DNA of 64,000 bases from Tachypleus tridentatus (taxonomy: Eukaryota > Arthropoda > Merostomata > Xiphosura > Limulidae). The position numbers and the translations under genes are program-made. The DNA lies in NCBI RefSeq assembly GCF_004210375.1, contig NC_134825.1, positions 65,215,558-65,279,557 of the forward strand. Reading direction: 5' to 3'. Numbering within the stretch: the stretch's first letter is position 1; each line of letters starts with the position of its first letter. Below are positions 16,355 to 53,864 of the stretch, in pieces. Under the pieces are notes generated by a model, which ran no database searches, was not told the origin of the DNA, and saw only the letters and a program-made list of their open reading frames with translations.

Positions 16355-16356
16355 TA

Positions 16357-16795: not shown

Positions 16796-17335
16796 TTCAT
16801 GTTACTGACCACACTCACTTTACTCATCATTCTTATCACATTCATGTTACTGACCACACTCACTTTACTAATCATTCTTATCATATTCATGTTACTGACC
16901 ACACTCACTTTACTCATCATTTTTATCACATTCATGTTACTGACCACACTCACTTTACTCATCATTCTTATCACATTCATGTTACTGATCACACTCACTT
17001 TACTCATCATTCTTATCACATTCATGTTACTGACCACACTCACTTTACTCATCATTCTTATCATATTCATGTTACTGACCACACTCACTTTACTCATCAT
17101 TCTTATCATATTCATGTTACTGATCACACTCACTTTACTCATCATTCTTATCATATTCATGTTACTGACCACACTCACTTTACTCATCATTCTTATCATA
17201 TTCATGTTACTGACCACACTCACTTTACTCATCATTCTTATCATATTCATGTTACTGACCACACTCACTTTACTCATCATTCTTATCACATTCATGTTAC
17301 TGACCACACTCACTTTACTCATCATTCTTATCACA
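16796..17335. repeat. 45-bp minisatellite, 12 units
   Basis: Twelve contiguous units start ttcatgttactgacc and contain acactcactttactc and atcattcttatcaca. This looks like three 15-bp subunits. Units differ at only a few positions (C/T in atcaYatt, gaYcaca). Because 45 is a multiple of 3, several frames stay open on both strands and give 15-residue repeats. I see no evidence that it is translated. Confidence 0.95.
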
Positions 17336-17615
17336 TTTAATCTTATCACATTCATGCTACTCCACTAGACTATTTCTTATAATACTCATTTTAAATCAAC
17401 ACTTACACTTTTTGAACAAATGTAAATGTATATCTCACAGTGTTTCTTAACACTAGAGGGGTACACCTTATAGCGTTCCTTAGTCCACGCATACTATCTA
17501 CCGTACTATTACTTACTGAATTCACCAGTCTTATTTGACATGCTCATTCTACCATAATACCCACGCTTATTTTTATCACACGCAAACAGTAGCACCAACA
17601 TTTCACACGTGTAGT
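17336..17615. other. Right edge of the satellite region
   Basis: The array decays into the TCAC-type words over about 250 bp. No gene. Confidence 0.5.
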
Positions 17616-21985: not shown

Positions 21986-22191
21986 ATGGCTACTTGGATA
22001 ATGAGTAATATGAAGAACGTTGTGAACGTCTTACCCCCATGTCATTGTTCGAGAAAGACTGTTTTGAGAAGTTTGGTTTTATTGACCTGTTTCATAAATT
22101 TATGCCCTACAGTCTTAGGCAAGGGACAATTGTTGTCATTGGATGAAGATAACTGGCAAGAAATGCTTTCAGGAGAGTGGATGGTTGAATT
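21986..22191 (+). CDS. TMX1: TMX1 exon 1 (signal peptide, start of thioredoxin domain)
   Basis: The ATG sits in a fair context (aacATGG). It encodes a 26-residue polar N-terminus, a hydrophobic core (LRSLVLLTCFINLC) and a probable cleavage near VLG-KG. The mature chain starts with LDEDNWQEMLSGEWMVE, which matches the opening strand of TMX1. The exon ends in phase 2 at the donor gtagga. The long N-region leaves Met6 or Met9 possible as the true start. Confidence 0.9.
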
Positions 22192-25100
22192 GTAGGATTA
22201 TTTTAAACTCAATTTTGAAGTTAAGCTTGAAAGTTTTACTTCAGTTAAGAGTAGCAAACAAGCTTTTGCTTAGGCTTAAATGAATTAAATTAGGTCTATG
22301 TGTACCTTTTTATCTTGAAATGTTTATTTTCCAGAAAGCTGGGTATTTAATAAAACTTTATGAATTACTTGGAAATGGAAAGGCATCTTGAACTTGGAAC
22401 TTCGGTTTTATGATAGAGCTTTTTCTTCTTTGATGGTAGTATCCCTATTTATTTTGTGTATTGAGGCTTCCAAAAGTTTGACAAGACTTTTTACAGCAAA
22501 TTAATTAGTATGTTAGATCTTAGTGAATTGAAGAAACCCAAAATATGGTTTAAAAATTAGCCTGAATTGGGAAACAGAGAATGAAGGTAAATGGTCATCA
22601 TTCCATTTGGGATAATGTCACTATTACTTGAGTGGGTACCAGAAGGTTGTAGTTATTTTGGGATCTGTTTTTCTTTGTTATCTCTGCAAATGATATGGAC
22701 TATACTGTAAAATCAATATGATTTGTAAATTTGCTAATGGGAAAGTTTGGATTTTTTGATTATGCTTTTATTATGCAGGAGTTGAGTTTTGTTAATGAAC
22801 TGACATGTGGAAAATGAGTTGCAATATTGATAAACATGAGGGGGCAAGTAAGGTATGAACATTTGTAAATCCCTTATTTTGTATACAGAAGAAATACTTT
22901 CAGTCTGAAGAAAGAGTAGAATTTTGGTTGGGTGATTGATAAAAGTCTTTATCCTTTAGCTGAATACTTGGAAGTATTGAAATGAGCAAATAGTGTACTG
23001 GAGTCTATTTACCAGAATTTCGAATTCAGGAGTTCTAAGGTTATTATTACACTGCATGAAGCTCAGTTGGATGTTGTAATATTGTGTTCAACTTTATTGT
23101 CTAATTATAGAAAAAAATACCAAATTGCTTTAAAAAATTTGGAGATGGACTACTAAACTTTTGAAATATTTAAGCTTTGAAGAGATGCAATGACTAGAAC
23201 ATGTTTTACCTAGAACCTAAAAGTATTACAGATGACTTGATGCTAATATTTAAAGTCATTAGGAGTTCAAATAAACTGTTTATGATAGGTTTGCTGGAGT
23301 GGTGAGAGGTTAAGAATGAAGATGAAATTCTGAATACTAGAGTTAATAAGTCCTTATCCAGACTGGTTATTTGGAAATATATTTCCTTTGTTAGAATTAT
23401 TAACTTGTAGAATGTTTATTAGATGATGTGATGATTTAAGCATTGTGTGGATCATGCATTCAGTTTTGGCACCTTGTATTTTAAGAAGGATGTTGAACTG
23501 TTGGAGATAGTTCAAAGGAGAGCTACAACTGTGCAGTGAATCCAATTATGTATTGCTTATAATGTGTAAGTTGGTGAAAATCTCTTTTAACTTGTTCTCT
23601 TTTGGAAAGTGATGGGGAAGGGATGATCTAATTGAAATAGTCAAAAGTATGATGAGAATTAATAACATTGGTGGATCAATTTTTTGTGTTCAATTCTGAG
23701 TGCAGTCGTAAATCAGAAAGATCAGACACATTTCTATTTGAGACAGGTTTATTTTGCCAGTAAGGTTATAAATTTGTAAAACAACTTTCTATCTATTGTA
23801 GCACAAAATACATCTTTATGAAAAGCTTGATGGATATTTGGAATCATTGCTGGATTCAGCAATTAATTTTCTGTTTGTTGATGGCAGTTGGAAGTTGATA
23901 TTTCTTATGGGTTTATAAGATCCCACAGTATCCTGTATAGTTATAGTATTTGTTGTTTTTACTTTCTTTTTAAGGTTTTTGGATAATTTTATTATTGTAA
24001 TGGTTTATATTTAGATTGTGTGGGTTTCTTTGTTTGTTCTGTAAAAATATCATGTAATTTGTTTCAAGCTTGGTGTTAAATCTTGTAGTAAAGGAAAATA
24101 GAAAGATAATAAATGTAAGACCTTGCTTGCTTAATTGCTTGCTTAAGGTTATATATACTGCAAAAATTTAGTGTATTATATACACTACAGCCAAGTTTTA
24201 TTTATTTGAAATTTAATCATTGTCAATTTTTAATTTTTAAAATTATATTAGAGTACACACTTAAAAGTTATTCTTTATTCTACCACAGAAAGTACATGTC
24301 TGATATGAAATAATACTGATAGATTTTAGAAAATAAAAGTTGCCCAGGTTAAAATAAAATTATTTATGTAACAAATTCTAAAGATAATATCAGATAAATT
24401 TTTAGGTCCCATTTTAATTTTACTCTTTCTGAAACTCTGCATTCATGATGGAATGCATACATTGCAATAAATATTATCCAGTTATCTACAGTTTATAATT
24501 TAGAGACACTATACTTGTATTCTACTACTTGGAAGAAGGTTTTAAAATTTTATAATTCTAAATATATGAAACAAGTTATTTTTAGTTTTCTATGATGTAA
24601 AGAAACCTAATTCATAATTTCCAGTCCCATTTTTTATATTTTTCTTACCTGTTTGGTATTTAGGCTAATGACAGTCAGAGATAAAAAAAATCCTTCATCA
24701 GTTATTAAAATAGAATCATGTTGTAAAGAAGAATGTGAGAAGGGAGCCTAACCTGTATGTGAATAATAGTTAAGACTTCTCTTCATAGTTATGATTGTTT
24801 AATAGGCAGTAATTTAATTTCTGAATTGTTAAATTTACAATGAGTGAGTTGTTAAAATTGGTTATTTAGATTTTAAAATCCTTGGTTTTCTGTGATCAAC
24901 TTAAAAAGCTTGATATGTAACAATATTACAAATTACATGAAGGTAATGTATCTTTCCCATTGTTTTCTTGCATGTATAAGCATTATTCTATTTGTGTATA
25001 AAACATGTTATTTCACTGATGGTTTTTTTTCACAGCTTTGCACCATGGTGCCCTGCATGTAAGGCTTTAGAACCTGTTTGGAAAGAGTTCTCAGACTGGA

Positions 25101-28100
25101 GTGATGATTTGGGAATAAAGATTGGAAATGTTGATGTTACCCAAAACCCAGGTATTATGTACTCTAAATGATTATTTGATAAAAAGTGTTTGATATTTGT
25201 GAATGTGTGTGTAAAGCTCTTATCTTGCATTTGGATTTTTTATAAACTGATTTTTTTTGTTCAGTACATAATACTGTTTTAACACTTAACTCCTTTTGGG
25301 TATAACCAAGACCACTTTTTAAAAACCAGTTTTGGTAAAATAAAGCAAAACCAGAAAGTATTTCATTCAAGAGGGTGTACAAAATTAGTCATAATTTACA
25401 TTATTAATGAATAACACATGTAAATTAATAAGAAAACTATAAAAAATGTTTTAAATGACCATTCACTTATTTTGTCAACTTTTAATTAAATCTTTATAGC
25501 CAATAACTGTAAGGTTCCCCATATGTACCATGGATTTCTTATTTTGGAAATTTCAAAAACCTGAATGTGGATACTACAATCTCTTACTTGTTCATGATAA
25601 TTTTAATGGAAATCCATGTATACATTCATAATAATCCACAAACTCCTTGACTCTAGTGTAAAGGCTTACATTTGAAAATGTCTAAAATTCGAATTTAGAT
25701 CATTTTGTCTTTAGTTTCTTCTGCAAATACAGATTTTCAAGTAAAATTGCTCATTTAAGTCATATAACCTCAAAAAAAATAAACATTTACCTCATATATG
25801 GAACCCCTCAAAACCTTAATTTGTTGTTGTATATATATCAGGAACCAAAAAGCCTGTGTACAAAATTTCAAGTCATTTTATCAAAAATTGTGGAAGTAAC
25901 TTCAAAATGATTAAATCATAGGTACAAAGTTATTCAGATATATACAATAATTTCAACTTACTCTATCTTATGATGTAATTTATCTTCTTACTCTATAGTT
26001 GATCATTCACTGGTATTTGTGTTATTTTTCTAATGGTGACTCCTCTTCTTGGACAATCTTTATTTTCCCCTGAAGCTGTCATTAGGTAGAATATTAATCT
26101 AATTTTAATTCATTAATGGACATAGCATTACTAAAATAGAAAATTTGTCTATAAACTCTTGTTTAAGCAATACATTTTTGAGATATCTGAAAATACTTTT
26201 TCAGGTGGAAAGATCTGAATTGCTTTATTAAAACTACTTTTGCTGACTCCATTTCGTTGAGTGAACAACTATTTTGGCAATTAATAATAAACATTTGGTA
26301 ATAAAAAGATTAAATTGTACTTTATCTCTGTACTTTTTTAAACCAGAAACTTTTCTTTGCAAAGTAATGTATTTATATTAATTTTTTGTAGAATGTTTTA
26401 AATTTTAATGTTTGCTATTTAATATACAATTGAACTGTTACTTAGACAAGAACCAGGTGACAACAGGTGAAGTACTTGTCCATTATTGGTTGCTCTGTCC
26501 TTGTCAGTAGTTGTTAAGCAAAAACAGAATAGTCCGTAACATACATGCATGATTGCTCCCACAAGTCTAATCTAATTTGAAAATTTCTTCAGTAAGAAAT
26601 AGATCAGCTCACAACTAGAAAGTCATAATCAAAGTTAAAATTAAAGAAAAGTGAAAGGACAGTCATGACAACAATGTATCATAATAGATTGGTTCAGAAC
26701 TGTATAATTAAAAATGAATTAGTTTAACTTATGACTGGAGGTTTACAAACTTGATGTCATCACAACATTCACATCAATCAATCACCTGTTGGTTAATTCA
26801 GTTGGAAAAGTGCAGTCAAGTTTTCAAATTGACTTACAAACCCTAATTATATACATTTTAGAAAGTTTGGTTTTTTGATAATAAACATGTGTTACTCATT
26901 TGTGTATGTTTGAGTTTAACATGCCTTTTTGCAGGAATGAGTGGAAGGTTTATGGTGACAGCATTACCAACAATCTATCAGTAAGTCTTCTTGCTTATAT
27001 CTTAATTGGAGATTTGAATAAATGTACATGGTAATGGTTTTATCTGTTGTAATTCCTATTATAATGGAGCTGGTGATTTATACATCCAAAACTTGGATCT
27101 GAGAAACTACTGATCATCACCAATCATAACTAGATAATATTTTTATAACTAGACAGTAATTTTATAGCTGAGCAATTCCGACAAAAATAGTTATTTTTTC
27201 TGATTTAACCAGTAAAAATTACAGACAAAAAAGGAATAAGTTTTGTATTTAATTGATTAAAAATTAAAAATAAACAAAATCTACAAAGAAATACTTCAAT
27301 AAAATCTACTCTGTGATATAATGCTGTAATTATAGCTAATTTTTAAACTAAAATTTCAGTAATGTCATTTTTCTCATGGATGGTAAACATTATTGAATGT
27401 TGATTGTACATTGTTGTAGACGTGTCAGACAGTTACAGAAAAACTCCAGTCCCGATAGTCCTCTGCAAGACCAAATAGTCATACCTGCCTTCCAGACAGA
27501 TATTTCTACTAGTATTGTTATTGAAAGCAGTGTGATTAATAGAACACTAAAATACTTTAATATTATGTAGTTGAGTGTATGAGTAATAAAAAGAAACATT
27601 TTCATACTTTATATGTTATGGTACATTATAGACATACTCCATAAATCACTGATGCAGTGAGATAAATACAGAATTATAGTATTATATATTCTGTATCAAA
27701 TATACTTAATTGAACTACATACAAAATAAATTTAGTTATATATATATGAAATCTAAAGTTTATTGTCTGTGGTTTTAGTGTCATAGATGGACAGTTTCGA
27801 CAATACAAGGGATCTCGTGATAAAGTTTCATTTATAAACTTTATAGAAGAAAAGAAATGGACTAGCACTGATCCTGTGTCATGGTGGCAATCACCCCAGT
27901 CCTTTATGTAAGTAATCAACAATTCTACTTTAATTTCTTATGATAGCCACAAACACTCATATTATAAAAAGTATTAAAAATTTCAGAAAGTTTTCAACTC
28001 CATTTGTTTACTTTCTTCACATGTGTTTGAGCTTATTTCACATACATTTGTACTCTCTACTTCATTAGAGTCCTGGTAATTGTTTCACATTTGTTTCCTT

Positions 28101-31100
28101 ACGTTAGTTGAGCTGTTTCACCAATTTCTAATATTATTTCACATTACAGATTATCAGTTTAATAGGACTTCTGAAGATACAGTATGTACAATTTATGCCA
28201 TGAAATATTTTAACTTTTTTTCCTATATTGCATAGGTGCATTTTTATCATTAAGCTTAAAATATAAGTTTTTGATGTGTACTTAAGTTGTATGCTTTCAT
28301 GACTTCAAGTGTTTTCTTGTTTTTGTCTAGAATGTCTACTATCTCCTATTTTTTCAAACTGTCTATGGCACTGAGAGTGAGTATAGTTTCTTTTTGCACT
28401 TAGGTTTTTAATAACAATTTCAGTGTTGTTTTTTTAAAACTTATTATTTGTAGTTAAGTGTTTAAAAGCAATAATAGATGTAGTCATTTCAATACTTTTG
28501 TAAGTCCTAGGTTTTAAAAAAAATTATGTCAAAGTCTTTAAACAAAACAGTTATAAAAACAGAATATTGAAATAGAATGTTTTCTGGCTTGTTGATGACA
28601 TCATTATTAACTCTTTCATCACAGGGTCAGTCCTTGAATCCACTCCATAACTAATTTATGCTTATTATAATTTTTGTGCTATGAATTTTAAATTAGTAAG
28701 CATGTGTTCATGACATTTGGCATATTATCAGTAAACGTTAAAAGGCTGTCATATGCAAAATATCAGATTTTTATAATTAAATCTTAAGGTTTGTTAAACA
28801 GTGTGTTTCTCATGCCTTTTTTATTTTTGCGTGTTGCCCATCCGATGGGAAAAGTAATTTTAATTTTAAGATTGAAAATACTTTTATGTATCAGAAAATT
28901 TTCAAATTTCACAAACAAAATCCTTATAATGTTCATATATTTTTATCAAATGTGTCTTAAGAAAAAACTGTTATTTTCGCTAACAGATATCTGTATAAGT
29001 TCAGTTAGTTTGACCAATTTCATAATCACCATGTAAAATAAGGAAATGAATATACATTATTCCTTTTTCATTCTAGAATGACTACAGATTATAAAATGAA
29101 AACATAAATGTTTAGACTAAATAGCTTAAATCTTGTAACATTATACATTTATACGGATTTATTATTTTATTATATTGACACTTTAGCCATGCCTAGATAA
29201 CAATACAGAAGTTACAATAACATGGCACATGTACATTCATGTAACTGTATCCAGTAACATAAAACTGGACCTTTAGTTTCTACAAAATGACCTAGCTTGG
29301 CTGTGTTTTATTGAATTTGGATTAGGTGAAATTAGTCATATTTCAATTATTATAGATTGTGTATATATATATAGATTATTACTATTTATAAACAAGTTCT
29401 TAAACTTATTTGTCTTAAAACATAAAATAGTAAATAAAGAAATAAAGCAAACAATTATCTCTTCTAGTTATGACTGTTATACTCATTGCTGCTTGTCTTA
29501 GTCTTAAGAAATTTTGCACATGGAGGATGTGACACAAAATCTTTTTTTTTTTAAATCATAAATTACTTTATCAGTACAATAGAATTACATTATAATTTAT
29601 CAAGTTTAATAACTAAGCTGTATTTGTATCTTAAAAAATATGAAATCAAAAACAGATTAAAGATGCAACTTTCCAGTTTGAAGGTCTGTCTTGAAAGAAA
29701 GAGAGGATACTGTTATCTGTTATATTTATAAATGGCTGAGAAAATCAGTAAGGGAACATTCTAGGCTTCTGAGTGGTTATTCACATGTCAATACAATGTC
29801 AATATAAATGTATACAAGGGACCATTTCCAAAAAGGGCAAGAGATGAGTAAGGGAGCCACTGTGTTTGATTCACTAAATATAGTGATAGCTTAGCAAATA
29901 GAGAAGATAAAAATATTTTTATTTTATATTCTAGCATGTTAATATTGGTAATTAGAGTCCCTAATTCTTTCAAAACTATAAACGTTTTTATTTTAACATC
30001 ACAAACATTTAATTTGAACCTATGCTGCATTCAGTAAACCATGTGACACAAAAAATCAATGTTTAGTTGTGCCTGTTTAATATTTACTTTGAAATTAAGA
30101 AATTAAATAATGTATAATATGAAAATTTGAATTATAATCTACAGATTGATACCAAACTTAAGGAGATAAATTGATAAAATATTAGTTCAATAAAATTTTT
30201 AATGTTTGTCGAAAAATATAATAAATTAGCTTTTGACCTGTGATTCATCTGGAAAAGGAAGTTAGTATTTTGTGTGTGTATGAATCATGGTAGGAATTTA
30301 ATTTTTTGCCCTAGACAGTACTTTTTTCACAGAGAAAGTGGTAGCAGGAAATACTACAATGAATCAATTGAAGGTATATTGTTGCATTTAACCTCACTCA
30401 AAGTAGGTCATTGTCCAACTTACCAATGTTAAAGTGACTCTCTGCACTCAAAAATTAATTTTTACAAGAGACACTACAACTATTTATTTTGATAACATAG
30501 CTCAGAAATATTATTCAATAATCCATTTGTTTGTAAACAAAATAAAATGGAAATTCTTTTTGGTAACAACTTGCAAGGGTTTATTCGTTCGGTTTAGTTA
30601 ATCAATGGAAGAGGTGTTCATCTCTGTAGAAAGCTACTTTGTTGCCTGCCGTAAGTGCTTTTAATACATAAAACAACAACAATATATATATTTTATATAC
30701 AAAAAAAATTAAATCATTATTTGTATTGGCCTTTTATGTAGGAAACTGCTAGTTAAAGATAAATTATATATATATATCTTAAAGAATTCTAATAATGGAA
30801 ATTTTTTTATTTAGCAAACAATGACTGTTCTTGACCTGCCCATCTGAACATGCCTACTGATAATATCAAGACTTGCACTTGGACTAACTTTCTTGTATAA
30901 ACAAACGTCATGTTTTAAAGATACTAATATTTCTATGGATCTTTATTTTAGTTTACTGTGACTTGTTATGACTTTTGCATAAATCACTCTTGTGACCTCT
31001 TAATATCTGTTGTGGTTTATGAGTACTCCTGGAATGTAAAGGTTGTTCTGAAAAAAAATTCATAAATCAGTACCTGATGCAAGTTTACATTATTTTAAGA

Positions 31101-34100
31101 ACATGTGTAGTAAACTGATACCTGCTAGTTAGTGAAGGTACTTTGTGGTTGGTAACTATCACTTTATTCCTTGTTCTGATCAACACCTACTTAACTGTTG
31201 TGGAGAGTACTGATTACTGAATGACATATCTAAAGAAAATGTGTACTTATTGTAAGAAATAGCTGTTGCAAATTGGAATGTAAGTATATGAATTATACAT
31301 ATTATTGATTAAATTTCCCATTGTGAAGATTTCTCTGTGAAAAATCTTCTGAATTGTCAATTTTTGGACTAACTGCATACTCAAACCATTTTTATTTAAG
31401 TAAAAATCGTTCCTAAGCCTTACTAACTCTCACAAAATACTGTAAAGAAAATTCCTGAATATTTCAAATATTCAATTTAGAACACAAAAAGTATATTGGT
31501 CATTTGAATAGGATGCCCCAAAATTAATACAGTTTATCTTGATTCTAAGCAAACTAGAAATAGGTTAAACAATTCTACTGCTATTTGAAGCAATAAACCT
31601 GATTAATACAATCCAGGTAATTCTCCTTGATTAATGGCTTACAGTACCCAAATATCAGATTTTGTATTATTGACATTTCAAGTTTCTTAATTTCAAGAAG
31701 AAATATTTAATTTCAAACAGTTAGAAACAAACTATACATAGCTACAATAAATAATCTAAAATTAACTTCTTGCCCTCTTAATCTGATAATTGATAATAAA
31801 GTTCAATTAAATTATGAATATAAGACTAAAAGGGCATGATATGCATTTTGACCCATGGAAAGGAAAGGTTGTACCAAGAGAATTAAATGCTTGCTAAGAC
31901 TAATAAGCTCAAGTTATTGAAAGCTTGTTAAATGTATTTGTTTCCGAAGTGTGTATTAGATATATCTATCTGGAATATTTAATATGTTGATATATAATTG
32001 TGTGGCTTAAGATGTAATTAATGTATTTCTTAACTTCATACCATAAGTATAGATATATATACATACACACACAGATTATATACTTGTTTCATTTTCTTCC
32101 ACAGAGTGCACACAACAAAATAATTGAAGAGTATGGAATTCCTTACTGGGGATCATATATTATATTTGCACTAGGAACCATTGTATTAGGTGCTATACTG
32201 GGTTTGGTAAGTTGTGCTGTTTTCAATCCCAGTAGAGTTTGAAATACTTGATATTTGTTATATCAGAAAAGTGTGAATTCCATTTTTTCTTTTATATATG
32301 GCATTGACATTACTATCGTGAATATCATTAATACCAATTAATAGAGGAAATTTGAAGCTAGTTCTAGGTCATAAAATTTGTTAATCCATGAAAAATAGAG
32401 TTCACTTTCTACAGTGAATACATAAAGATTGAAGAATTTATAAAAGGGTGTGATAAGATTTCCCCCACAAATTATATTGTCATTTAATCTTACTTTTATG
32501 GTGGGAGATAATTGAGAAAGTCTAATAAAAAAGAACCTTTACAAAATCAGTTGGTGAAATATATTATGAAAGAAAGCCAGTATAGATTCACCATAGAAAA
32601 TCTTGCCTCTCTGTATTTTGGTAATAATCGTACAAGAATTTAAAAGAAGTGAGGGTTTAGATTTTCAGTTTTCTCAAGGGTGCATGTGTAAGAACAGCCT
32701 TTAAGGACCAAATGGTTCATTGTTGTCTGCATGTTGTTATTTTACATTTTATTGTGTAAAAGCCACTAACTCTCAGTATTAAAAAACAAAAAATGAAAAA
32801 TTGAGTAAGCTGATAATATGAACATTTATTAGCACTTCTCTAATAACTACCACATTCCTCATTCAAAATAAAGTGCTTAGCATTGTTATAATATTCTTTT
32901 TAAGCTTAACAGTTTCAGTTAATAACTAAATAAAAAAAAATTGCATAGTTAAAATTAATTTTAAATGTTAAATATGTTTAAGAAAGTGTAATGGTCTCAT
33001 AAGGATAGTTATCTTAACACATCTGATTAACTTTTTTCTTGCTTTGTACAGATCTGCTTTAACTCTTCTGGATACATAAACTAAGAAGAAACTATGTAGT
33101 GATGTACAATAAATTTTATGTTAGAAAAATAGAAAAATATTTTAAGTGGAAATACAGAAAAAGAAAAACTTTGTACTTTGAAAGATCAGACATAATCTTC
33201 ATACCTTTTATCAAACTGGTTTTGTGGCCAATAGCTATTTCATCAATCAGAATGTATTGAGTAGAACATCATGTAAAATATTAAAAGTGTATAATTGTTT
33301 GTTTGTTTTTTTCCAAAACTCTAAGTTGTTAGAGGGCACTATACTTTATTATGAAACATTTTTATATAATATGATTAACTATTTTTTATTACTTGTAATA
33401 AATCCATAAACAAAAGTCTTTTAAAATCAGACTGAAAAAAAGATATTAATAGATACAAATGTAATCTCAGTTGATAACTTGTGTGTTATAATATTTAAAA
33501 AAAACTTAGTGATTTTTTTTTCAGTGCTGAGTCAGGGTACTGTTGTTCTCTCTTTGATTTAATTATTTAAATTAGCAATATTCAGAAACTTATCAGGATT
33601 CCTACATGTTTCCCATACATGTCTGAGCAGAATATTTTTATGTCCCTACTATGAAACATTATAAAGTGAGACATGTTGGTTTTCCTCTGTTTATACCAAC
33701 ATTTTAAACAAGATATTTTAATATTGGATGGATGGGTAGTTTATGACTACTTATTCAACTAGTGCTAAATACAAAAATACAGATTTGATCAATTTTTCAA
33801 GGCCATGAGTCAGGAGATCACAAACTTTGTGGATAAAATATTTCAGTATAAGGTGAATAGTTATTGACCAGATCCATAAAATGTATTAAATATAAAGTTC
33901 TAGACCTTCTCAAGTTATTAAAGATGGGGAATTAAAAGATCACTTGTACAAAGAAAATTCATCCAGTCATGTGGACAGTTCCTACATAATCAAATGAAAG
34001 GGTAAAGCATTCAGGAGGCCCAGCATGGCCAGGTGGGTTAAAGTGTTCGAGTCATAATCTGAGTGTCATGGGTTCGAATCCCCATTGCACGAAACATGCT

Positions 34101-35945
34101 TGCCCTTTCAGCCATGGGGGCATTATAATGTGATGGCCAATCCCACTATTTGTTGGTAAAAGAGTAGCTCAAGAGTTGGCAGTGGGTGGTGATGACTAGC
34201 TGCCTTCCCTCTTGTCTTACACTGCTAAATTAGGGATGGCTAGCGCAGATAGCCCTCGAGTAGCTTTGCTCGAAATTCAAAAACAAAAAACAGAGCATTC
34301 AGTATAACATTATTGGGGGTATAAATGTTTCATAAACACAGTTTGAACCTTTTTTTTTCTCTTTAAGACCAGTACCTAAAACATTTGTTTTTTTGTATAA
34401 TTTCTCTTCAGAAATTTTTTTTTATAATACAGTTTTATAAGATTTTACACAAAAAAGAAACATTTGTTGAATTATTCTTTGTGATCAAAGTCCACTAGAG
34501 GAAAGACTACAATAAACTTTGCCATTAAGGTTGGATGTAATTAACTAATCTGGTTAAACTTTATTCTTTATCTTTCATCTTTTTCATTGTACCCAAAATT
34601 ATTAATGGTACAATTTGTTAATTAGTTTCTTCCTGTTTTCAAGTTAATTGATAAGGGAAAAGCATTATCACTGCAAACTAACCATTTTGTGAATCTGTTG
34701 ATTTGGCACTCAGAAAAAATATTATAAGGAAAGTTACTGATTTTGTTGGGTTTCTTTCCAGCTTAATTATTAAATACAGAAATAAGTAATCAACATTCTT
34801 TCATTGATCGTTTTGATTTTCAAGTACTTTGGACCTGCAGGCCACTTCCCTTCAGCCATACAGCACCCACATAGCTAGCAAATTAAGGTTTAAGATGTAA
34901 TTAATGTATTTCTTAACTTCATACTATAAGTATGAACCCTGAATATTTTTTTCATTTTTTTAACAGTTTGCAACTTCCAGTTAATCCAGTTGCAACTTCA
35001 CAAATAAATTGTTTTTATTTTTTTAAAATTAATTGTTCAGATGAAATTTATATGATGTATGATACGTAATAGCTGAAGTTTTAATAATAAAGTTATTTAT
35101 ATAATTTGTGAAATACTTATTTTCCTTTCAGATGATTGTATGTATTATTGACTACTTCTTTCCTCCAAAAGTGTGTACACAAGAAGTATCTGAAAAGATT
35201 CATCCACCTGAAGAAGAACTGGATAATGGTGATTTGGTGAGTATTATAAATATACAGCTTTGTTTTTCAGTAGTTCTGTAATTTGCTCATGATAGTTTGT
35301 TTGTTTTAAAGTTTGCTAGATATTGCATAGCCACAGAATACCATTGAGTGTCAGACATGTATTGAAATTTTTGAAATTCTATTTCAGGATCAATTGTTAA
35401 GAGACAGTTGTCATTAACTTACCGTACCAGTACTGGTTTCATTGTAAAACAGTTTTATCACTTGGTAGCAAATCTTCTTACTTAGTATCTGAAGTCTCAT
35501 GCACCAGTCACACAATAATATAGTTTTCTCTTGTAAAATGAATCAGTTGGCATAAGAATATACAATACAAAAACTTTTTCATGGAAGAGAAGCTAAGATA
35601 AAAGTAACTGTTTGTGCAGTGTTTGAATGTTGGTCTACAGTAGCTTCTCAGCCAATAGCAACACAGGAGCATGATACTGTTTAGTAAATAACACTTTTAG
35701 TGAAATCTTGTATGAAAAATGTTTATTATTTGTTGTTTAATTTACAACTTTTTTGTTTCTTCATGTCTCAGTAGAAATATATATTATTCTTAAACGTTTT
35801 TCGAACTACTCATAAGTTTTATGTTAATATGACGAATGAGATTTAACCTTTTTAGGAGGAGGAAGATGTGATTGAAGATGATATTATCAAAGATAATCAA
35901 GAACTCAGGAGAAGAAATATTGAAACAGAGCAAGCTGAAAAATGA
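21986..35945 (+). CDS. TMX1: TMX1, thioredoxin-related transmembrane protein 1 (8 coding exons)
   Basis: The coding exons are 21986-22191, 25036-25151, 26935-26980, 27779-27907, 28331-28376, 32105-32206, 35132-35236 and 35856-35945. All introns are GT-AG, and the exons sum to 840 nt (279 codons plus stop), close to the roughly 280 residues of vertebrate TMX1. The product is an ER membrane thiol-disulfide oxidoreductase. Residues about 27-45 form a hydrophobic signal peptide. The thioredoxin domain runs from about 47 to 150, with WCPAC (Cys74, Cys77) as the TMX1-type active site and the cis-proline in ALPTIYH (Pro119). After a lumenal linker there is one membrane span at about 198-223. The cytosolic tail is acidic (about 242-258) and ends after a triple arginine at 268-270, a possible ER-retention signal. 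Cys219 and Cys230 sit beside the membrane, as do the palmitoylated cysteines of vertebrate TMX1. In-frame Met6 and Met9 are alternative starts. The family call rests on the full-length match to remembered vertebrate TMX1. Confidence 0.95.
22440..24130 (+). mobile_element. CR1-like LINE reverse transcriptase remnant in TMX1 intron 1
   Basis: Frameshifted pieces of one non-LTR reverse transcriptase follow in order. They are a KFDK-like block A near 22470, a decayed VPQGSVLGP block (VPEG plus downstream) near 22640, CKFANGKVW in place of KFADDTKL near 22720, and AFSFGTLYFKKDVELLEIV followed by QRRATT near 23450-23530. A C-terminal block FASKVINL..NNF..KLDGYL lies at 23740-23860. It sits in sense orientation to TMX1. 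The likely 3' end is the cttgcttgctt repeat near 24130. Many stops make it inactive. The assignment to the CR1/L2 group rests on the KFADD and VQRRATK style motifs. Confidence 0.8.
25036..25151 (+). CDS. TMX1: TMX1 exon 2 (CPAC active site)
   Basis: The acceptor ttttcacag and donor cag|gtatta bound a 116-nt exon. It encodes FAPWCPACKALEPVW, then NVDVTQNPG. This is the redox site of the TMX1 subgroup, with CPAC rather than the CGHC of PDI. Confidence 0.95.
25152..26934 (+). other. TMX1: TMX1 intron 2
   Basis: AT-rich intron between exons 2 and 3. CpG is very rare. I recognise no repeat family or internal gene in it. Confidence 0.8.
26935..26980 (+). CDS. TMX1: TMX1 exon 3 (cis-proline loop)
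   Basis: This 46-nt exon lies between tttttgcag and gtaagtc. It encodes MSGRFMVTALPTIYH. The Leu-Pro-Thr-Ile stretch carries the conserved cis-proline facing the CXXC site. Confidence 0.93.
26981..27778 (+). other. TMX1: TMX1 introns 3 (26981-27778) and 4 (27908-28330)
   Basis: Two short AT-rich introns with consensus donors (gtaagtc, gtaagta) and pyrimidine-poor but valid acceptors. Nothing else is recognised in them. Confidence 0.75.
27779..27907 (+). CDS. TMX1: TMX1 exon 4 (end of thioredoxin fold)
   Basis: The acceptor ggttttag and donor gtaagtaa bound 129 nt. It encodes DGQFRQYKGSRDK and FINFIEEKKW, the last strand and helix of the thioredoxin fold, then the WW-containing lumenal linker. 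Confidence 0.93.
28331..28376 (+). CDS. TMX1: TMX1 exon 5
   Basis: This 46-nt exon between tgtctag and gtgagtat encodes MSTISYFFKLSMALR. It matches the MS..SALFQLSMWIR region of vertebrate TMX1 and closes the frame to phase 0. Confidence 0.88.
28377..32104 (+). other. TMX1: TMX1 intron 5
   Basis: A 3.7-kb AT-rich intron with almost no CpG. Its last 98 bases contain a 44-bp segment (32007-32050) that recurs in intron 6. I recognise no mobile element in the rest. Confidence 0.75.
32105..32206 (+). CDS. TMX1: TMX1 exon 6 (membrane span)
   Basis: This 34-codon, phase 0-0 exon follows cttccacag and ends at gtaagttg. It encodes EEYGIPYWGSYIIFALGTIV and continues hydrophobic into exon 7. The open frame continues into the intron to a stop at 32242, which would give a short intron-retention tail. 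I regard that tail as read-through, not coding. Confidence 0.93.
34015..34293 (+). mobile_element. tRNA-Thr-like SINE in TMX1 intron 6
   Basis: A full-length copy with a 9-bp target-site duplication, agcattcag, at 34006-34014 and 34294-34302. It is in sense orientation to TMX1. Compared with intergenic copies, about a dozen CpG sites are TG or CA, including the anticodon-loop CGT (now CAT), the CGCG after the anticodon arm (now CATG), and the sites in the GGCGGTGGG body and the GGGACGGC block. Confidence 0.93.
34890..34933 (+). repeat. 44-bp direct repeat of the intron 5 acceptor flank
   Basis: It is identical to 32007-32050 except at one base. It is followed, as in intron 5, by a T-rich tract and an AG (ttttttaacag ending near 34967). 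It lies about 200 bp upstream of the true exon 7 acceptor. It is probably a duplicated pre-acceptor region and a potential decoy splice site. Confidence 0.75.
35132..35236 (+). CDS. TMX1: TMX1 exon 7 (end of span, juxtamembrane cytosolic part)
   Basis: This 35-codon, phase 0-0 exon lies between ctttcag and gtgagtat. MIVCIIDYFFPP completes the membrane span. It is followed by two lysine-containing stretches and the start of the acidic tail (PPEEELDNGDL). Confidence 0.92.
35856..35945 (+). CDS. TMX1: TMX1 exon 8 (acidic tail and stop)
   Basis: The acceptor ctttttag opens 29 codons plus TGA. The encoded tail is EEEDVIEDDIIKD, then ELRRRN and a final Lys. An acidic cytosolic tail is typical of TMX1. 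The RRR cluster could serve as a di-arginine ER-retention signal, which is an inference. Confidence 0.92.
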   Translation, partial: EEEDVIEDDIIKDNQELRRRNIETEQAEK

Positions 35946-36254
35946 AAATGTTACTTCTTTGTTTTCCTAATTTTATAATTGCCTTTCAGCAGGAAAAATG
36001 TGGGTCTGTTTTCAGTTACTAAGAAATGATGTTGGACTGTGTACAATCTTGTATTATTCAAAGGTTGATCTGATATGTAACTGATTAGTAGCAATTTATG
36101 GGAAATGTTTGTGTGATAATTGTTGCATCAGCATGTTTAATGCGTTGCTGATTCTGTTAATAAGAAATAATAGTGAACTGTGTACAACTCAACACCAGGG
36201 GCATGTGGTGATTTGTCTTGACAGGGAAGCATAAAAAGTGGATTATTAAATAAA
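35946..36254 (+). promoter_or_regulatory. TMX1: TMX1 3' UTR with candidate poly(A) signal
   Basis: AATAAA at 36249-36254 is the first canonical poly(A) hexamer after the stop. A second lies at 36404-36409, inside the hAT remnant. An imperfect direct repeat containing actgtgtacaa recurs near 36035 and 36177. Confidence 0.5.
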
Positions 36255-36364
36255 AATATGTACAGAATGGCCAATAAGGTAAAATTAATTACATGTAGTA
36301 ATTAATCATATTTAGTATTAAGTACTTCCAATTAATGACAAACACAAGACATGTTTGACTACTT

Positions 36365-37720
36365 ACTTTATATGTTAATTCCATTCTCTTTTCATTTTCA
36401 TTCAATAAATTTATTACATCGTAGTAAAAACTAACAGTCTTTATTTCCTTAAGGAGATTTTTCTCAATCATGATTAATACTAAACTTCCAAGTCTTTCTT
36501 GTCATTGTGCATTTTTGGTCTATCTGTGTATTATTTTTAAATGAAAGAAAGAATGCTCAGCTGAGGCATTGGTAGCTGGAAGAGTCGAGGTTAACTCACA
36601 CACCTTTGTAAGTTGTTGCAGGATGCATCTAACTTGGAATCTTGCAAACAAAAAGTAATTCATTCACTAGTTTTCCTTTCAAATCAGCATCAGTGTATAA
36701 AACCAAAAGTTCACTTTTCAAGTGATGAATATCAAATTGTTTTCCATAATTATTTTGTAATGATTTTAATATTAATTCAGGAAATATTTTTTTTGTCTTC
36801 CTGTTGTTTAGTGTCAAGAAGCTCAAGGAATGATATGTTTTTCAGCTTTGAAACCTAATTTCAATTTGGCTGCCCAAAATTCATCAAACTTGTTTCTCAT
36901 TCTTTGCAGAACAGTCACCATTTCATTTACTTTATTCGTACAGTAAGATATGTTAAATATCCTATTCTGTAGAACATCAAATATAACATTTGTATATGAA
37001 AAAATACTGGCAAATATATTCAACAAGAAACTGAACTCAACATCTCAGATCCAATGGAAGTGCTTAGGCACAAGGAAAGGTTTCAGTATCTCAGTTGCCA
37101 AAATTATCAACAATATTTTGAAAGAAATCAACATGTTTTCCTTGTATTCCAAGACAGTTTCAGCAAGATGGTGGTTATAATTCCAACCAGATGGGGCCAC
37201 TTTTGAGAATCTTTAGTATCTAAAAGGTGTACATGCTTTGTTGATTTTGCAAAAAAACGAAGGGAATGATGTACATTTTGCAAAAATTCTGTCACACTCC
37301 TTGATCTTCAGCAAAGATTGCGACAATACTAAATTCAATCTGTGTTATATACAATGAATGAAAAGAACTTTTGGATACTTGTCTACAACTTTCTTTTAAA
37401 GCCCATTCAGCTCACTGGGCATCACGTTTGCCCCATCATAGGCAAATTTTAACTCAATATTTAATTCCTCGACTAAATTAAACACTATGTTAGATATACC
37501 TACAACTGTTCAATCTGCACTAACATTTGTAAACTCCAGGTATCTATCACAAATTTCACCATCTGTAGTCACAAACTGTACAACACTAGAAAGCTGAGAA
37601 ATGGTTCTTTATTTGTTGTTTCATCTTAGCTAAGAGCCACAAATGGAGAATCACTTATTTCACTTTTACTTTTATTGAACAATCTTCCCTACACAGTTAA
37701 TTAGATTGTTTTGGATTTTA
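36365..37720 (-). pseudogene. DUF4371/hAT-type transposase remnant (ZMYM1-like)
   Basis: Frameshifted minus-strand frames give, in order from high to low coordinate, FVTTDGEICDRYLEF, FAYDGANVMPSELNG, LFIHCI..RLNLVLSQSL, IKECDRIFAK, NEMVTVLQRMRNKFDEFW, LKSELLVLYTDADLKGKL, TLPATNASAEHSFF and MIEKNLLKEIK..ERRMEL-like text (as EKRMELTYK). These are the DDE-side, RNase-H-like and C-terminal dimerisation regions of hAT-type proteins annotated as zinc finger MYM-type 1-like. Multiple stops make it a pseudogene. The N-terminal zinc-finger part is not recognisable. It ends about 420 bp from the TMX1 stop, on the opposite strand. Confidence 0.82.
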
Positions 37721-38630
37721 TTTGACAAGCCAGAAAACACTTGAAATGTTTATTGGAAGTACGTTTTATGCATTAGTGTAAAAATGCTTGATGGGTTAAA
37801 GTAGCAGTGAACAAAGTGATAACTTTGGATTTGCACTTTTATCTGAGGTATGGAACACTAGTGTGCAACTTTGTTTTTTTAAAGAGGTGCTAAAGATTTG
37901 ACTTATGCTGAATGTTCTTGTGGTTTAAACCACATTTGGGAAATATCTTCCTCAACATTTTTTTTTCTACCAGACGTGCACTGTGGTAAAGTATTTTAGC
38001 AATGAGAAAAATGCCTCAAAATCGCTTCTAAATATGTAGCTTATAATTATTTTGTCCGTTAAACACTGAATGATACATTATTGCTTGATAAGTACTTTTG
38101 CACATGATAAACCAAAGTTGTTATTAAAATTAAGATTTCTCTTCATTTCAAGCTATTGAATCTTCATTACTTTAAATGAAGTGCAAATCAGTGAATAAAA
38201 TTAAGACTAACACTGCAGACTTAAAATTACAATTTTCTGTTTCTTACTTTTATCTATACTTGTTGAATCATGAGTTGTCTCACCTAAATCATAAGTTATT
38301 TGTACTTTAAAATATGAAACAGTTAATGTATGTTTTGTAAATCCTTAATTTTAAAATTACTCAAAACACATAAACATGTTTAAATACTTTTTACCATTTC
38401 CATAAAAATGTGTAAAATTATTTGTTTGGTTAGTTTTTGGTAGGTTTATTAATTACAAGTTTTTTTTTCACTTAAGAAAGCTTATTAATATCTAATTAGC
38501 ATGCAACAGAAAATGTTATTAATTACTGTATTTGAATGCTTCTGTGTGCATGTTTGAAGTTTTTGCAAGATAAATTGATATATACTTTACTGTTATCAGC
38601 TTCAACATTGAAGAATATCCCTATGAAAAA
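37721..38630. other. Unassigned AT-rich stretch
   Basis: This is probably the decayed N-terminal part and flank of the hAT element at 36365-37720. I see no readable motif in it. Confidence 0.4.
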
Positions 38631-38686
38631 AAACACATCAGTAGTTATTGTGTGTATTAAACACATCAGTAGTTATTGTGTGTATT
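38631..38686. repeat. 28-bp tandem duplication (2 units)
   Basis: Two identical 28-bp units, each starting aaacacatcagtag and ending tgtgtatt, lie directly in tandem. The identity implies a recent slip or a local duplication. Confidence 0.9.
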
Positions 38687-39120
38687 AAAAATATCAATTA
38701 TTGATTGCTACTAAGATCTTTCACAACCATTTGGAATTCATAAGCATTAATGGGATGCATTTAAGGCTATATCACAACTGGTAAATTACCAGTTTGTGTT
38801 AAAAGATATACCATGCATAACTTTATTTTCAATCTATTAATGGGATCTTGGATCATTTCACTTTTCTTGTTCATGATTAGAGTAGTAATGGTTATTTTAA
38901 CATCCTAAATCAAATGTAACCATTATAAAGTAAGAAAATTATTTAATAAGTTACTTCCTAGTTAATAACTTTTTGTTAATACATTGCTAGGATTTCAAAA
39001 CTTGACGTCACAGAACAAACCTGCATTGTAATGCTGGGTGGCTAATTATTCAACATTCATTGGAGTGGTTGTTTTTCTCCAGAGACTAAGCTATTTAAAG
39101 CTTCTCAATGACTACTTCTC

Positions 39121-39284
39121 AATGAATTTGAAATAAATCTCAAGAATGATGACATTTTGGCTTTCTTTTGCCTCAAAAACAAACTTTTTTTCAAACAACT
39201 TCCTTTGGATATTTTAAAATGTTTGTTTTTGAGGCAAAAGAAAGCCAAAATGTCATCATTCTTGAGATTTATTTCAAATTCATT
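39121..39284. repeat. Perfect 64-bp inverted repeat with a 36-nt loop
   Basis: The arms 39121-39184 and 39221-39284 are exact reverse complements over 64 bp. Pairing breaks at both outer and inner edges. A transcript would fold into a long perfect hairpin. No TIR-transposon motif is recognised in it. Confidence 0.95.
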
Positions 39285-40553
39285 TCCTGAAACGTAACAG
39301 CTGTGCAAAGGTCAACTTTTTCTATCAACTATTTACAGAAATAACCTGAATCTACTATACTTTTTGTTATATAAAAGTATCTTTTTTATTTAAAGTTTAA
39401 TGTTTACTAATTTGATATGATAAAAATATTGAAGTAACACAGTTGTAGTTCTGGTTGTTTTACCCCAGATTCTGTTTATGACCTGCACTTATAAAAATAT
39501 TTTTTTTTTTTTTTTGCTGGTGTTTTGTTTTTCCTGATTTAAGTTATGATATAATCAGGAATAATAATATAATCACACAAGAATTGTGATATAGTTGAAT
39601 CTCATGCTCTTATGTTTTATATAAGAAGAAATATTTTGAATGTCAATATATATACACACATATATATAAATGATCTGTTTTTAATTTTCAAGTGCTTATG
39701 GAAGTACGCATTTGGCATTCTTCGCTTCACAAACATCGTTAATTTGGGAATTGTTGGTAGATATTTGAATCCAAAATAAATTGACTTGAGCTCCAGGCTT
39801 ATTTGTCATACCATTTCTGCTTCATCATTAATGAAAAAAGTTCTGTATTTTAGAAAGTGTGTCACTACTACTGAAATATAACTTGCACTATAAGTGCTTA
39901 TTGTAATGCTGAAAAACTGAAATAAAGATTTACTTACTTTTTTGGGGTAAATTCTTGTCATGTGTCTTTTAATTTCAAGAAAATAAATTTCTGTAATCTA
40001 ATTTTAATGATATACCAGAATATAACATAGAATTTAAGAACAATTAGAAACCTGTTTGTCCATCTAGACATCTCAGCAGCTAAGTTAAACTTGAAAAAGT
40101 TCCCAAACCACCTTTCCTGCGACGTTAATCAAAGTTTGAAATATGAGTTAGGCAAGTACCACACACACACAAGGCCCTAGGATCGATCTCGGGTGAAAAC
40201 ATTTTAATCCAATTCATTTCTATACTGTTCGATATTTAAAAAAGTTTCTTTGAAAAATTAAATTAATTACTAAATTCAAAATGGCTAAAAAATTCTGAAA
40301 TTAATATTAGAGTAATCCCACTGTCTTATCAATAGTCAATTTAAATTTAATACTTCTAATGCATGTTTCATTATTTGGATCTGTCACATCTTTACACATC
40401 AGCGACAGAAACATCTTTGCATATCAACAACAACCACTGGAAGAAGAAAAAAAGTGAAAAAGACCTTCACAACTTTCTCTCTAAAACTTCCTGTCAGCAA
40501 TTCTAAACGCAATTATAATTATAGTCACTGTAGTTAAATGTTTTCTCTCACAG
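39285..40553. other. Intergenic, nothing recognised
   Basis: AT-rich sequence with a poly-T run near 39500-39515. No gene or repeat family was recognised. Confidence 0.6.
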
Positions 40554-40601
40554 GATGGACTGTAAAAAAAGGTTTTCGAACACCCCTAGTGGGAAGAGCA
40601 G
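40554..40601 (+). other. Exon-like 48-bp segment (uncertain)
   Basis: The segment lies between a good acceptor (ttttctctcacag) and donor (gcag|gtaaat). It is open in one frame as WTVKKGFRTPLVGRA. No partner exon and no family is recognised, so this may be chance. Confidence 0.15.
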
Positions 40602-40898
40602 GTAAATGTCACTTTGTTTTGTCTTCCTTCAAACAAGATTCCTGTCACAGTTGGTTTTTGTTTTGTTTTTTTACACTCAGACATTTTTTTCTAATGATTC
40701 AACTTAACCCCCTACTTATTCAAATCATTTTTAACAAGTCATTGATCTAATTTGTCATTTCTAAATTTAAAATGGCTAACAGTTAGTCCTCAAATAACAG
40801 CTCAAGATTTAATTAGCCTTTTTTTGTGGCACGTTGTCAGATGCTTTGTGAAAATCCAGACGCACTAAATCCGCACGCTTACCTTTATTTACATAAGC

Positions 40899-41181
40899 TT
40901 TGTTTGTTTGTTTGTTTTGGAATTTCGCACAAAGCTACTCGAGGGCTATCTGTGCTAGCCGTCCCTAATTTAGCAGTGTAAGACTAGAGGGAAGGCAGCT
41001 AGTCATCACCACCCACCGCCAACTCTTGGGCTACTCTTTTACCAACGAATAGTGGGATTGACCGTCACATTATACACCCCCACGGCTGGGAGGGCGAGCA
41101 TGTTTAGCGCGATGCGGGCGCGAACCCGCGACCCTCGGATTACGAGTCGCACGCCTTACGCGCTTGGCCATGCCAGGCCCC
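40899..41181 (-). mobile_element. tRNA-Thr-like SINE, CG-rich subfamily
   Basis: A perfect 12-bp target-site duplication, atttacataagc, lies at 40887-40898 and 41182-41193. It has the subfamily features ggctgggagggcgag and gcgggcgcgaacccgcg. The exact duplication suggests a young insertion. Confidence 0.95.
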
Positions 41182-49157: not shown

Positions 49158-51220
49158 ACCTCCAGAATGAAATAAAGGTAACTTGTTATGTTGTACATTT
49201 TTTTCAATATTACAGCTGATAATACAACCTTACTGCTTGGGAAACTACATTTTAGTTCCCTCATTGATAGCGAACGCGTTGGAACATTCGCAGCAAAATT
49301 TTAATATAAAATATAATGAAAATGTACCATATTATACCATAAGTGTAAATTGAGATCAGACGATATGCTCACCTGCCAATTATTTTGATTACCGCTAACG
49401 CAAATCTTTTACAGGACAATGTGACCCATTAAATAACAATAATAAAAAATTCTATAGCTAAAGCACAGAAAATTGCATTTTCAACAACGACAATAATAAC
49501 AAAAAGAAAATAAACGAGGTCTGACTTTTACTATTTAGATGATTGGTATATTTCAAGAGTTCTGTTAAATTTTACCCTTAACAACTAATGTAGCGACGAC
49601 CGAGGATTACAACACTGAAAGACGGCATCTTTTATGATTAAAGTGTTTGACCAGTAAACAGTCACGATTCAAAATCTGCCCAGTCTCAGTTTTTACTTCA
49701 TAAGAAGTTGTACCCATTCATAGAATCGGTGTTACTACAGTAACAACACAAATACAAAGACCTATGTTTTAATTAATATTTTATTTCATTTAATATAGAA
49801 ATAACATACCAAATGATGGAATCTGTGACATGAAGAACAGCGATCAAAATATGGAAAAGCCTTTATGTATCCAAAGAGCTTTATGGTCCGAATTACGAGC
49901 ACTTATCACAGCTACAGTGACTAAAATTTAATTTAGAGTAATAACAGTAAAGAGAAAAACACTAGTAAAGCACACCATAAAATGTAATATTTATATATAT
50001 TCAAAAAATGAAGAAATTACACTTTTACCTAATTATTTTGTGAACTCTTTATTGCCACTTTGTTGGTGAAATATACAAAAAATAACAATATATGTTATGG
50101 AATTACATTTTATTATATATCATATGTTAACGTGACATTTATAACAATTATTTGTACAGATTAAAGTTGACAAAGAAACAACAAAACAAATTTATTTTTG
50201 AAGAATATTTTATTTTTCACATTCGTTGTACCATTACTGAGAGGGGCAAGTATCTGTATAGTAGCATGATATCAAGTTTTGTTGATAAGGGCAACGTGAG
50301 TAAAGAACTTCTGTATTATTTTATCTATACTGATGAGTATAGATAGAGAGATTAATTTATTTATTTATAACTTTACTGCTGTAGTTAAGTGGTATTAGTT
50401 TAGAAGAACTAGTATTTAGAAAATTGATACAGTTGTCGAACCAGTGTCAAGCATTTTTAAGAGTTTTCGTATGGTATAAAATTTTGGAACATATGGAATT
50501 TATAATTATAAACTCTTTAATTTTAAGTGTGTACATGCAGTGTACGTAACTTCACCAATTATGTAGTGAATTAGGCTAAGTTTGCTGTTATTGTTAATGC
50601 TAATGTTATAGTTTTGTTGTTTTATTCGAAATGGTCTCAGAAAAATAATTAGTGCTACTACTAGTATAAGAAACCGTAACTATTACACTTCATAGAAAAG
50701 TGTCTGAATCTTGAAAGCAAAAGCAACTATTTCTGCTCGACTATGCTATTCTTAGTAATAAATAAGAGTTTTGTTGATCATTCTTGAAATGTTTAAAAAA
50801 TTTGTTTTAGTGGCATTGCAAATATCTGAATTTATGCTTATCTTTTGAAAAGTTTCAAATATATATATATATATATATTTCAATACTAGTATTAATATTG
50901 ACCTACCAACATCATTCTTTTTGTAACTTAGCATTGTACTAGACTATATTTGTTACTTGAATTCATAACAGTGGTATTACTCGATATAACTGTGAGCAGA
51001 ATAACAGAATTTAATACACTGGTGTAAAAATACTGATTATTTCATTATATCAGCAATCAACTTAACTCCAAGGAATTCAGTGTAAGTTTAAAAAGTGTAA
51101 AAGACTGTGGTAGTGCATTGGTTTTTTGTAAATGTAACAATTTGTTAGCAGTATTATATTAGTAATAATATTTTTTCTAAATTTTTGTTTTTTGAGTGTT
51201 TTTAGTTTAAGCATATAAGA
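49158..51220. other. Intergenic, nothing recognised
   Basis: AT-rich. An AT microsatellite lies near 50859-50878. CpG becomes rare after about 50.7 kb. Confidence 0.5.
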
Positions 51221-51229
51221 ATTTATGAA

Positions 51230-53480: not shown

Positions 53481-53864
53481 ATTGTAAATATGTGAATTAA
53501 CAATGTCAGTCTGATTTAAACTGAGAAGTGATGGAGTGTAAGGTAATGTTCATGTGGAGAATAAGAATACTTTTGTCCATTGTACAGTTTGCATATTGCA
53601 TTTCCATTAACTTTGAAATACATATCTCTAGTTTGTTTAGTATCTCTTTATATTGTATCCTGTATTTACTCTTTTCTAGCGCAAACTTTTGGCAAATCAG
53701 TGGTGTAGGGTAAAAATGAATAGTTGATAACTTTGACATGAGGTGTTGAACAGCAGTATGTGGAAGGTTGTGGATTACATAGTTTGACCATGTGTACACA
53801 GGTGTAAAGAAACATTGTACTGGAGTCAAAAGTATAGATCACATGCTTAGATGTGTGTTTTCTT

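Follow-up and report, generated by a model that had tools for sequence, protein, structure and literature searches.

In a 64-kb window of the Tachypleus tridentatus genome (i.e., the whole stretch of 64,000 nucleotides from contig NC_134825.1 that we analyzed, numbered from its first letter), a short interspersed nuclear element (SINE) in intron 6 of the predicted TMX1 gene carries TG or CA at 13 of the 19 CpG sites of its family, while sister copies between genes have decayed at the background rate. TMX1 is a transmembrane thioredoxin of the endoplasmic reticulum. We propose that the difference reflects long-term germline gene-body methylation, which we give a probability of about 0.86, and that the SINE would have been methylated because of where it landed. 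From the sequence, we infer that 5-methylcytosine caused the loss, that the methylation was of germline origin, and that the host gene, not recognition of the element, was its source. This phenomenon is already known in invertebrates, and the locus adds a clean case that comes with a good internal control.

CpG decay in the SINE family

The SINE in TMX1 occupies positions 34015..34293 on the plus strand, exactly where a previous sequence-only reading of the window had placed it, and is bracketed by exon 6 (ending at 32206) and exon 7. A 9-bp target-site duplication, AGCATTCAG, flanks it on the left (34006..34014, plus strand) and on the right (34294..34302, plus strand), and its presence on both sides (checked for this copy only) identifies an ordinary retroposed copy. 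All family comparisons were made among copies within the window. Two profile searches yielded 17 good copies; the second of them gave 26 matches at E < 0.02, 20 of them longer than 150 bp, and 9 fragments or weak matches were excluded from the counts. As in tRNA-derived SINEs, the copies are dispersed and have a common body and an A-rich tail, which was seen by eye in most of them, the truncated copy at 19875 being an exception. They contain GGTTCGAATCC, which we take to be a B-box-like motif, and ARAGORN (bacterial code) called a tRNA in none of the 17 copies.

By eye, the copies at 19875, 40900, 42687, and 62157 form a separate subfamily (type A) with a CpG-richer head, and the TMX1 copy groups in one subfamily with the other 12, all of which are intergenic. 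One of the two copies used for comparison in the sequence-only reading (40899-41181) belongs to type A, and its CpG-richer head means that comparison with it alone overstates the decay. This copy (40900..41181, minus strand) has 21 CpG at an observed/expected ratio (o/e) of 0.99 and lies 100 to 200 bp outside the CpG-depleted block described below; our result is independent of it. The 12 intergenic copies that group with the TMX1 copy supplied the consensus, which has 19 CpG sites; the TMX1 copy itself was left out.

At these 19 sites, the TMX1 copy has 13 TG or CA, 5 CG, and 1 other dinucleotide (CpG o/e, 0.38), which agrees with the earlier estimate that about a dozen of roughly 17 CpG had changed. 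The decayed sites are split over both strands (6 TG and 7 CA), as for symmetric CpG methylation. The proposal that the family could act as an internal control was borne out: the 12 intergenic copies keep CG at 145 of their 210 pooled sites, with 43 TG/CA and 22 other, while the TMX1 copy keeps 5 of 19. Pooling the four type A copies (73 sites) gave 13 TG/CA, 57 CG, and 3 other. For decayed versus kept CpG in the TMX1 copy and the 12 intergenic copies, Fisher's test gave P = 3.8e-5, and a beta-binomial distribution fitted to the intergenic copies gave P = 7e-6 for at least 13 of 19 sites decayed. Per-copy decay ranged from 0.00 to 0.32 in the 12 intergenic copies, against 0.68 in TMX1. Individual examples are the copies at 13401..13676 (plus strand; 15 of 19 sites CG, 4 TG/CA), 4073..4351 (minus strand; 15 CG, 3 TG/CA, 1 other), and 11472..11750 (minus strand; 16 CG, 3 TG/CA); the last is the top full-length BLAST match to the TMX1 SINE (87%).

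The decay is specific to CpG. As the sequence-only reading had remarked, other changes in the TMX1 copy are comparatively few: its non-CpG divergence (12 of 223 sites) lies below that of every other copy in the 13-member subfamily, so that age is not the cause of the CpG loss, and C-to-T or G-to-A changes outside CpG number 3 of 105 (a small count). The pooled non-CpG divergence of the 12 intergenic copies is 247/2499 (258/2499 with a leave-one-out consensus). A finding that CpG transitions are equally frequent inside the intron and between genes had been named as evidence that would tell against a methylation footprint, and the rates proved unequal. The non-CpG C/G transitions of the TMX1 copy (i.e., the small count of 3/105) predict a CpG decay of 0.057, and 0.68 is observed, while the intergenic copies show 43/210 = 0.205 against 0.192, twice their non-CpG C/G transition rate (leave-one-out, 2 x 117/1164 = 0.201). 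With the full consensus, the intergenic observed/expected decay ratio is 1.06, with a bootstrap 95% range of 0.73 to 1.54 over the 12 copies; intergenic SINEs thus have no measurable CpG-specific excess, as expected without an effect of methylation. The leave-one-out treatment was not used for type A, where the trimmed consensus was too short for three of the four copies. By hand arithmetic, the CpG transition hazard per cytosine in the TMX1 copy exceeds its own non-CpG rate about 20-fold and the age-scaled rate about 11-fold. If methylation speeds CpG mutation 11- to 20-fold, the upper end of the bootstrap range permits a time-averaged methylation of the intergenic SINEs of at most 5% to 3%.

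As a post hoc observation, the surviving CpGs of the TMX1 copy lean toward its 3' end: TG or CA stands at none of the last 4 consensus sites and at 13 of the first 15.

The TMX1 copy might also have descended from a source element that was already CpG poor, in which case the changes would predate the insertion and say nothing about TMX1. We regard this as very unlikely. The comparison is limited to copies in the window, and at 3 of the 13 decayed sites (consensus sites 27, 52, and 66) CG is found in only a minority of the subfamily copies, and these three sites may not count as losses of the TMX1 copy. Without them, however, decay still affects 10 of 16 sites in TMX1 and 29 of 178 in the intergenic copies (P = 1.3e-4), and the other 10 sites have CG in half or more of the subfamily copies. 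With 0 to 6 TG/CA sites each, the remaining 16 copies are all far from the combined pattern, and the non-SINE part of the surrounding intron is independently depleted (4 CpG in the 2637 bp of intron 6 outside the SINE; o/e, 0.082). A consensus-free comparison of the TMX1 copy with all 16 others found CG in the other copy and TG or CA in TMX1 in 160 cases and the reverse in 13; the same counts among intergenic copies range from 74:26 down to 6:60. We rejected circularity of the consensus as a cause, since the leave-one-out, consensus-free, and strong-site counts all concur.

TMX1 and the CpG-depleted blocks

A tblastn search with the human TMX1 protein recovered pieces of exons 1, 2, 3, 4, and 6 (E = 0.004, 2e-13, 0.002, 1e-10, and 1e-8, respectively), which follow one another on the plus strand. 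Exon 1 extends from the ATG to the donor site (21986..22191; start and donor placed by eye), and exon 2 (25036..25151) encodes the CPAC active site (FAPWCPAC). Exon 3 lies at 26935..26980, exon 4 at 27780..27908 (start approximate), and exon 6, which encodes the transmembrane part, at 32105..32206; the splice sites of exons 2, 3, and 6 were placed by eye. Also on the plus strand, exon 7 (35132..35236; MIVCIIDYFFPPKVCTQEV...) was recognized by eye from its splice signals and its likeness to human TMX1, and alone it had no match in the PDB. A probable last coding exon 8 (35856..35945, plus strand; by eye) encodes an acidic tail, EEEDVIEDDIIKDNQELRRRNIETEQAEK, followed by a stop codon. Exon 5, expected to be short, was not found. 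The traits of TMX1 are present, namely, a thioredoxin domain with CPAC, one transmembrane stretch, and an acidic tail. A PDB match of exon 2 to thioredoxin domain containing protein 1 (1x5e) also speaks for the identification, although it ranks second (see below). A Pfam scan of two plus-strand frames of 21.9 to 36 kb, spanning the gene, gave nothing; short exons are easily missed by such scans.

Two-state segmentation, with the expected CpG taken from base composition, delimited a CpG-depleted block at 22101..40700 (64 CpG versus 388 expected; o/e, 0.165), the right edge of which moves to 40800 with a fixed-rate model. A second block lies at 50801..55300 (11 CpG versus 104 expected; o/e, 0.106), and a third is described with the other features of the window. 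Shuffling the bases within 500-bp blocks produced no depleted block in 100 trials. CpG o/e is 0.131 over TMX1 (22051-35236), compared with 0.823 in SINE-masked CpG-normal DNA, and the masked value of 0.82 led us to discard the idea that richness in SINEs inflates the CpG content outside. The left edge of the first block falls within exon 1, whose CpGs at 22018, 22027, and 22050 are the last before the depletion, with only 2 more over the following 1 kb. Judged from the coding start, TMX1 is spared at its 5' end, and the depletion starts just inside the gene. The near absence of CG that the sequence-only reading described over 22.2 to 36 kb holds across TMX1, and only the 36-kb end needs correction, as the block continues to about 40.7 kb (o/e from exon 7 to 40.7 kb, 0.239).

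Comparison of the flanking intron (o/e, 0.082) with the SINE (0.38) suggests that the SINE probably inserted into a block that was already depleted and is probably part-way to CpG equilibrium there. The same comparison bears on another explanation, a little less probable than a CpG-poor source, in which the SINE was methylated through recognition as a transposon and not through its host gene. Element-directed methylation is reported for intronic transposons of cnidarians (PMC8857917) and for Strigamia and Planococcus (PMC7343188). Here, however, the sister copies outside the block have no excess CpG decay, and the flanking intron, which is not a repeat, is more depleted than the SINE itself.

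Strand skew and base composition

Strand skews of base composition can be a sign of germ-cell transcription over long times. In TMX1, the first 2 kb of intron 1 (22201..24300, plus strand) have almost no CpG and a strong excess of G over C, reaching +0.43 in 300-bp bins (2-kb value, +0.31; z = 7.9). This skew starts at exon 1 and fades after 2 kb; as a pattern in the sequence, it supports germline transcription of TMX1 with strand-asymmetric deamination. In the second depleted block, the G-over-C skew is +0.14 (z = 5.1) and starts near 50.1 kb, about 0.7 kb ahead of the drop in CpG. It hints at a plus-strand transcription unit, of which 50101-55300 could be the 5' part. Weaker skews also occur in CpG-normal DNA (1 to 15.1 kb, -0.058 and z = -3.9; 55.3 to 64 kb, +0.051 and z = 2.4), and a tandem array has the largest skew of the window (-0.39), so that skew alone is no proof of a gene.

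The strong skew at the TMX1 5' end and along 50.8 to 55.3 kb would suit a loss of CpG through transcription-linked mutation without methylation, in which single-stranded non-template DNA is deaminated. Such a process should strike all non-template cytosines, on one side, while the decay in the SINE is two-sided and confined to CpG (6 TG and 7 CA, against 3 of 105 other C/G sites), and the skew near the SINE is faint (two 2-kb bins, +0.08 and +0.05). Skew therefore cannot explain the SINE decay, and we hold this account to be highly improbable.

Least credible of all is the idea that the copy is merely old, or lies in a region of AT-biased repair or mutation, and lost its CpG along with everything else: the G+C content of the block is indeed lower (0.289, against about 0.34 outside), as are its GC and CC dinucleotides, but GpC o/e is 0.97 in the block, and we rejected old age because of the lowest non-CpG divergence in the subfamily and a general AT bias because of the 3 changes at 105 non-CpG C/G sites.

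Proposed explanation

Under germline gene-body methylation, the CpGs of the TMX1 transcription unit would have carried methylation in the germ line over a long period, and most of the surrounding DNA would not. A SINE inserted into intron 6 would have gained methylation along with its surroundings, and deamination would have turned its methylated CpGs into TG or CA at a rate some 11 to 20 times that of ordinary C/G transitions; sister copies outside would have escaped methylation and changed no faster than the background. Within the depleted block, TG and CA stand at 1.27 to 1.29 of expectation, compared with 1.09 to 1.10 outside. Germline gene-body methylation had already been put forward in the sequence-only reading; the present counts, from one intronic copy, support it as the best of the readings considered.

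Several observations weigh against it. The best match of exon 2 among 47 distinct PDB sequences is not TMX1 but TXNDC5 (8eky; E = 9e-20; three matched stretches), with 1x5e (thioredoxin domain containing protein 1) second (E = 3e-13). Depletion continues for 4.8 kb beyond the TMX1 stop codon (35945), with no G-over-C skew there (-0.004 and -0.038), which implies either a long 3' end or methylation running on. The block at 50.8 to 55.3 kb is as depleted as TMX1 and holds no identified gene. The expectation of a depleted gene amid normal intergenic DNA thus held only approximately (o/e of 0.82 outside), given the 4.8-kb overrun and two further depleted blocks without an identified gene. Per 100 bp in the block, CG is down by 2.21 and TG plus CA is up by only 0.85, with GC and CC also lower, so that CpG loss is not the whole of the composition difference. 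Only 1 of the 26 SINE matches lies inside a depleted block, and copy-level replication is nil; among matches longer than 150 bp, the two long depleted blocks hold 1 of 20, against 7.5 expected from their length (P = 0.001), and this scarcity of SINEs in CpG-poor blocks leaves no second intronic copy with which to replicate the result. Finally, PMC7343188 reports that exons are more methylated than introns in most arthropods studied, while here kilobases of intron are depleted.

A broader proposal is possible, though we think it somewhat doubtful: elements as such may be invisible to germline methylation (at most about 3 to 5% on intergenic SINEs) and methylated only inside transcribed units, an intragenic SINE may act as a dated recorder, and, by its CpG loss together with its strand skew, 50.8 to 55.3 kb may be a plus-strand germline transcription unit. 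If so, the non-CpG divergence of an intragenic SINE would give its age and its CpG loss the duration of host-gene methylation. More generally, repeats of one family inside and outside a gene allow mutation driven by methylation to be told apart from the effects of age, composition, and selection, using an assembly alone. Applied genome-wide, the approach could estimate how old and how persistent germline gene-body methylation is at each gene in species without methylomes, and could distinguish gene-driven from element-directed methylation.

Other features of the window

The third CpG-depleted block (15101..17400; start at 15301 with fixed rates) consists of a Tc1 transposon and a tandem array and is unlikely to be a gene-body footprint, as its low CpG may reflect the composition of the Tc1 element itself. 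The transposon (15271-16360) has 83-bp inverted repeats that are 90% alike and a CpG o/e of 0.22, and its 142-amino-acid open frame overlaps a DDE_3 match (E = 8.9e-14) that extends beyond the stop of the frame. The array (16779-17337) has 12.4 copies of a 45-bp unit with 97% matches and contains no CpG.

A PDB search with the six frames of 50.8 to 55.3 kb gave one sound match, to a Sleeping Beauty transposase (E = 1.3e-4), which places a Tc1/Sleeping Beauty-like relic at 52811-53146 within the second depleted block; the four other matches had E values of 0.11 or worse. Six-frame Pfam scans of 36.0 to 40.7 and 50.8 to 55.3 kb found no family at E <= 1, and ten single frames from the same regions gave only two weak matches below the cutoff. 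Scans of 40.8 to 50.8, 55.3 to 60.3, and 17.5 to 22.5 kb returned nothing at the curated cutoff. The Pfam scans covered the window from 14 to 60.3 kb, with two plus frames only for 22.5 to 36 kb. A hAT-like transposase relic suspected by eye in minus-strand frames of 36523-37509 had no Pfam support.

At 56822-56908, a scrap resembling RAWUL (Polycomb RING finger) was matched at E = 9e-4, below the curated cutoff and with stops inside the match; tblastn with PCGF3 gave only E = 1.1. Two pieces within 21402-21729 match the 3' part of the SINE only and lie beside a different tRNA-like head (by eye), perhaps representing a second SINE family with a common tail. Another repeat is present in CpG-normal DNA (44744-45447) and in the CpG-poor second block (51567-52544), its copies being 92.6% identical over 557 bp with gaps. 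By eye, the pair shows about 2 clear substitutions and about 8 small deletions (1 to 16 bp), an odd deletion-rich pattern, and the copy at 44.8 kb lacks a block of about 185 bp. Because both copies are CpG poor, the pair is uninformative as an inside/outside control.

Comparison with known systems

Nonmethylated transposable elements in Ciona are reportedly the subject of a 1999 study by Simmen et al., and the survey of Ecdysozoa discussed below is said to have Engelhardt as its first author. In Limulus polyphemus, of 342 elements a fraction of 0.117 was highly methylated, and of 7227 genes a fraction of 0.265 (Lewis et al. 2020, PMC7343188); that analysis dropped element annotations without Pfam domains, so that SINEs were presumably not covered. 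In cnidarians, intronic transposons are methylated above background (PMC8857917). Across Ecdysozoa, CpG o/e serves as a proxy for historical germline methylation (PMC8821070); that study used coding sequences and gene-wide values, whereas the TMX1 locus offers an insert of a known family with control copies outside. Among the matches listed from the open-licence literature (titles and abstract openings), we found no SINE-by-SINE CpG count in an arthropod.

The sperm of the tunicate Ciona provides a close parallel, in which sharp methylated blocks cover genes, and promoters and intergenic DNA lack methylation (Suzuki et al. 2013, PMC3827831). Its transposons are often unmethylated, and methylation can span the intergenic DNA between convergent genes (PMC3827831). 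The Ciona results come from direct bisulfite and affinity data, while methylation at the TMX1 locus is deduced from the loss of CpG. Among arthropods, the spider Stegodyphus dumicola has hypomethylated elements between genes, and elements inside a gene are methylated as their host is (Liu et al. 2019, PMC6409797), and its exons and introns are methylated about alike (PMC6409797). The spider pattern was measured by whole-genome bisulfite sequencing, while the TMX1 SINE would record the mutational consequence, in one element, of methylation in the germ line over evolutionary time.

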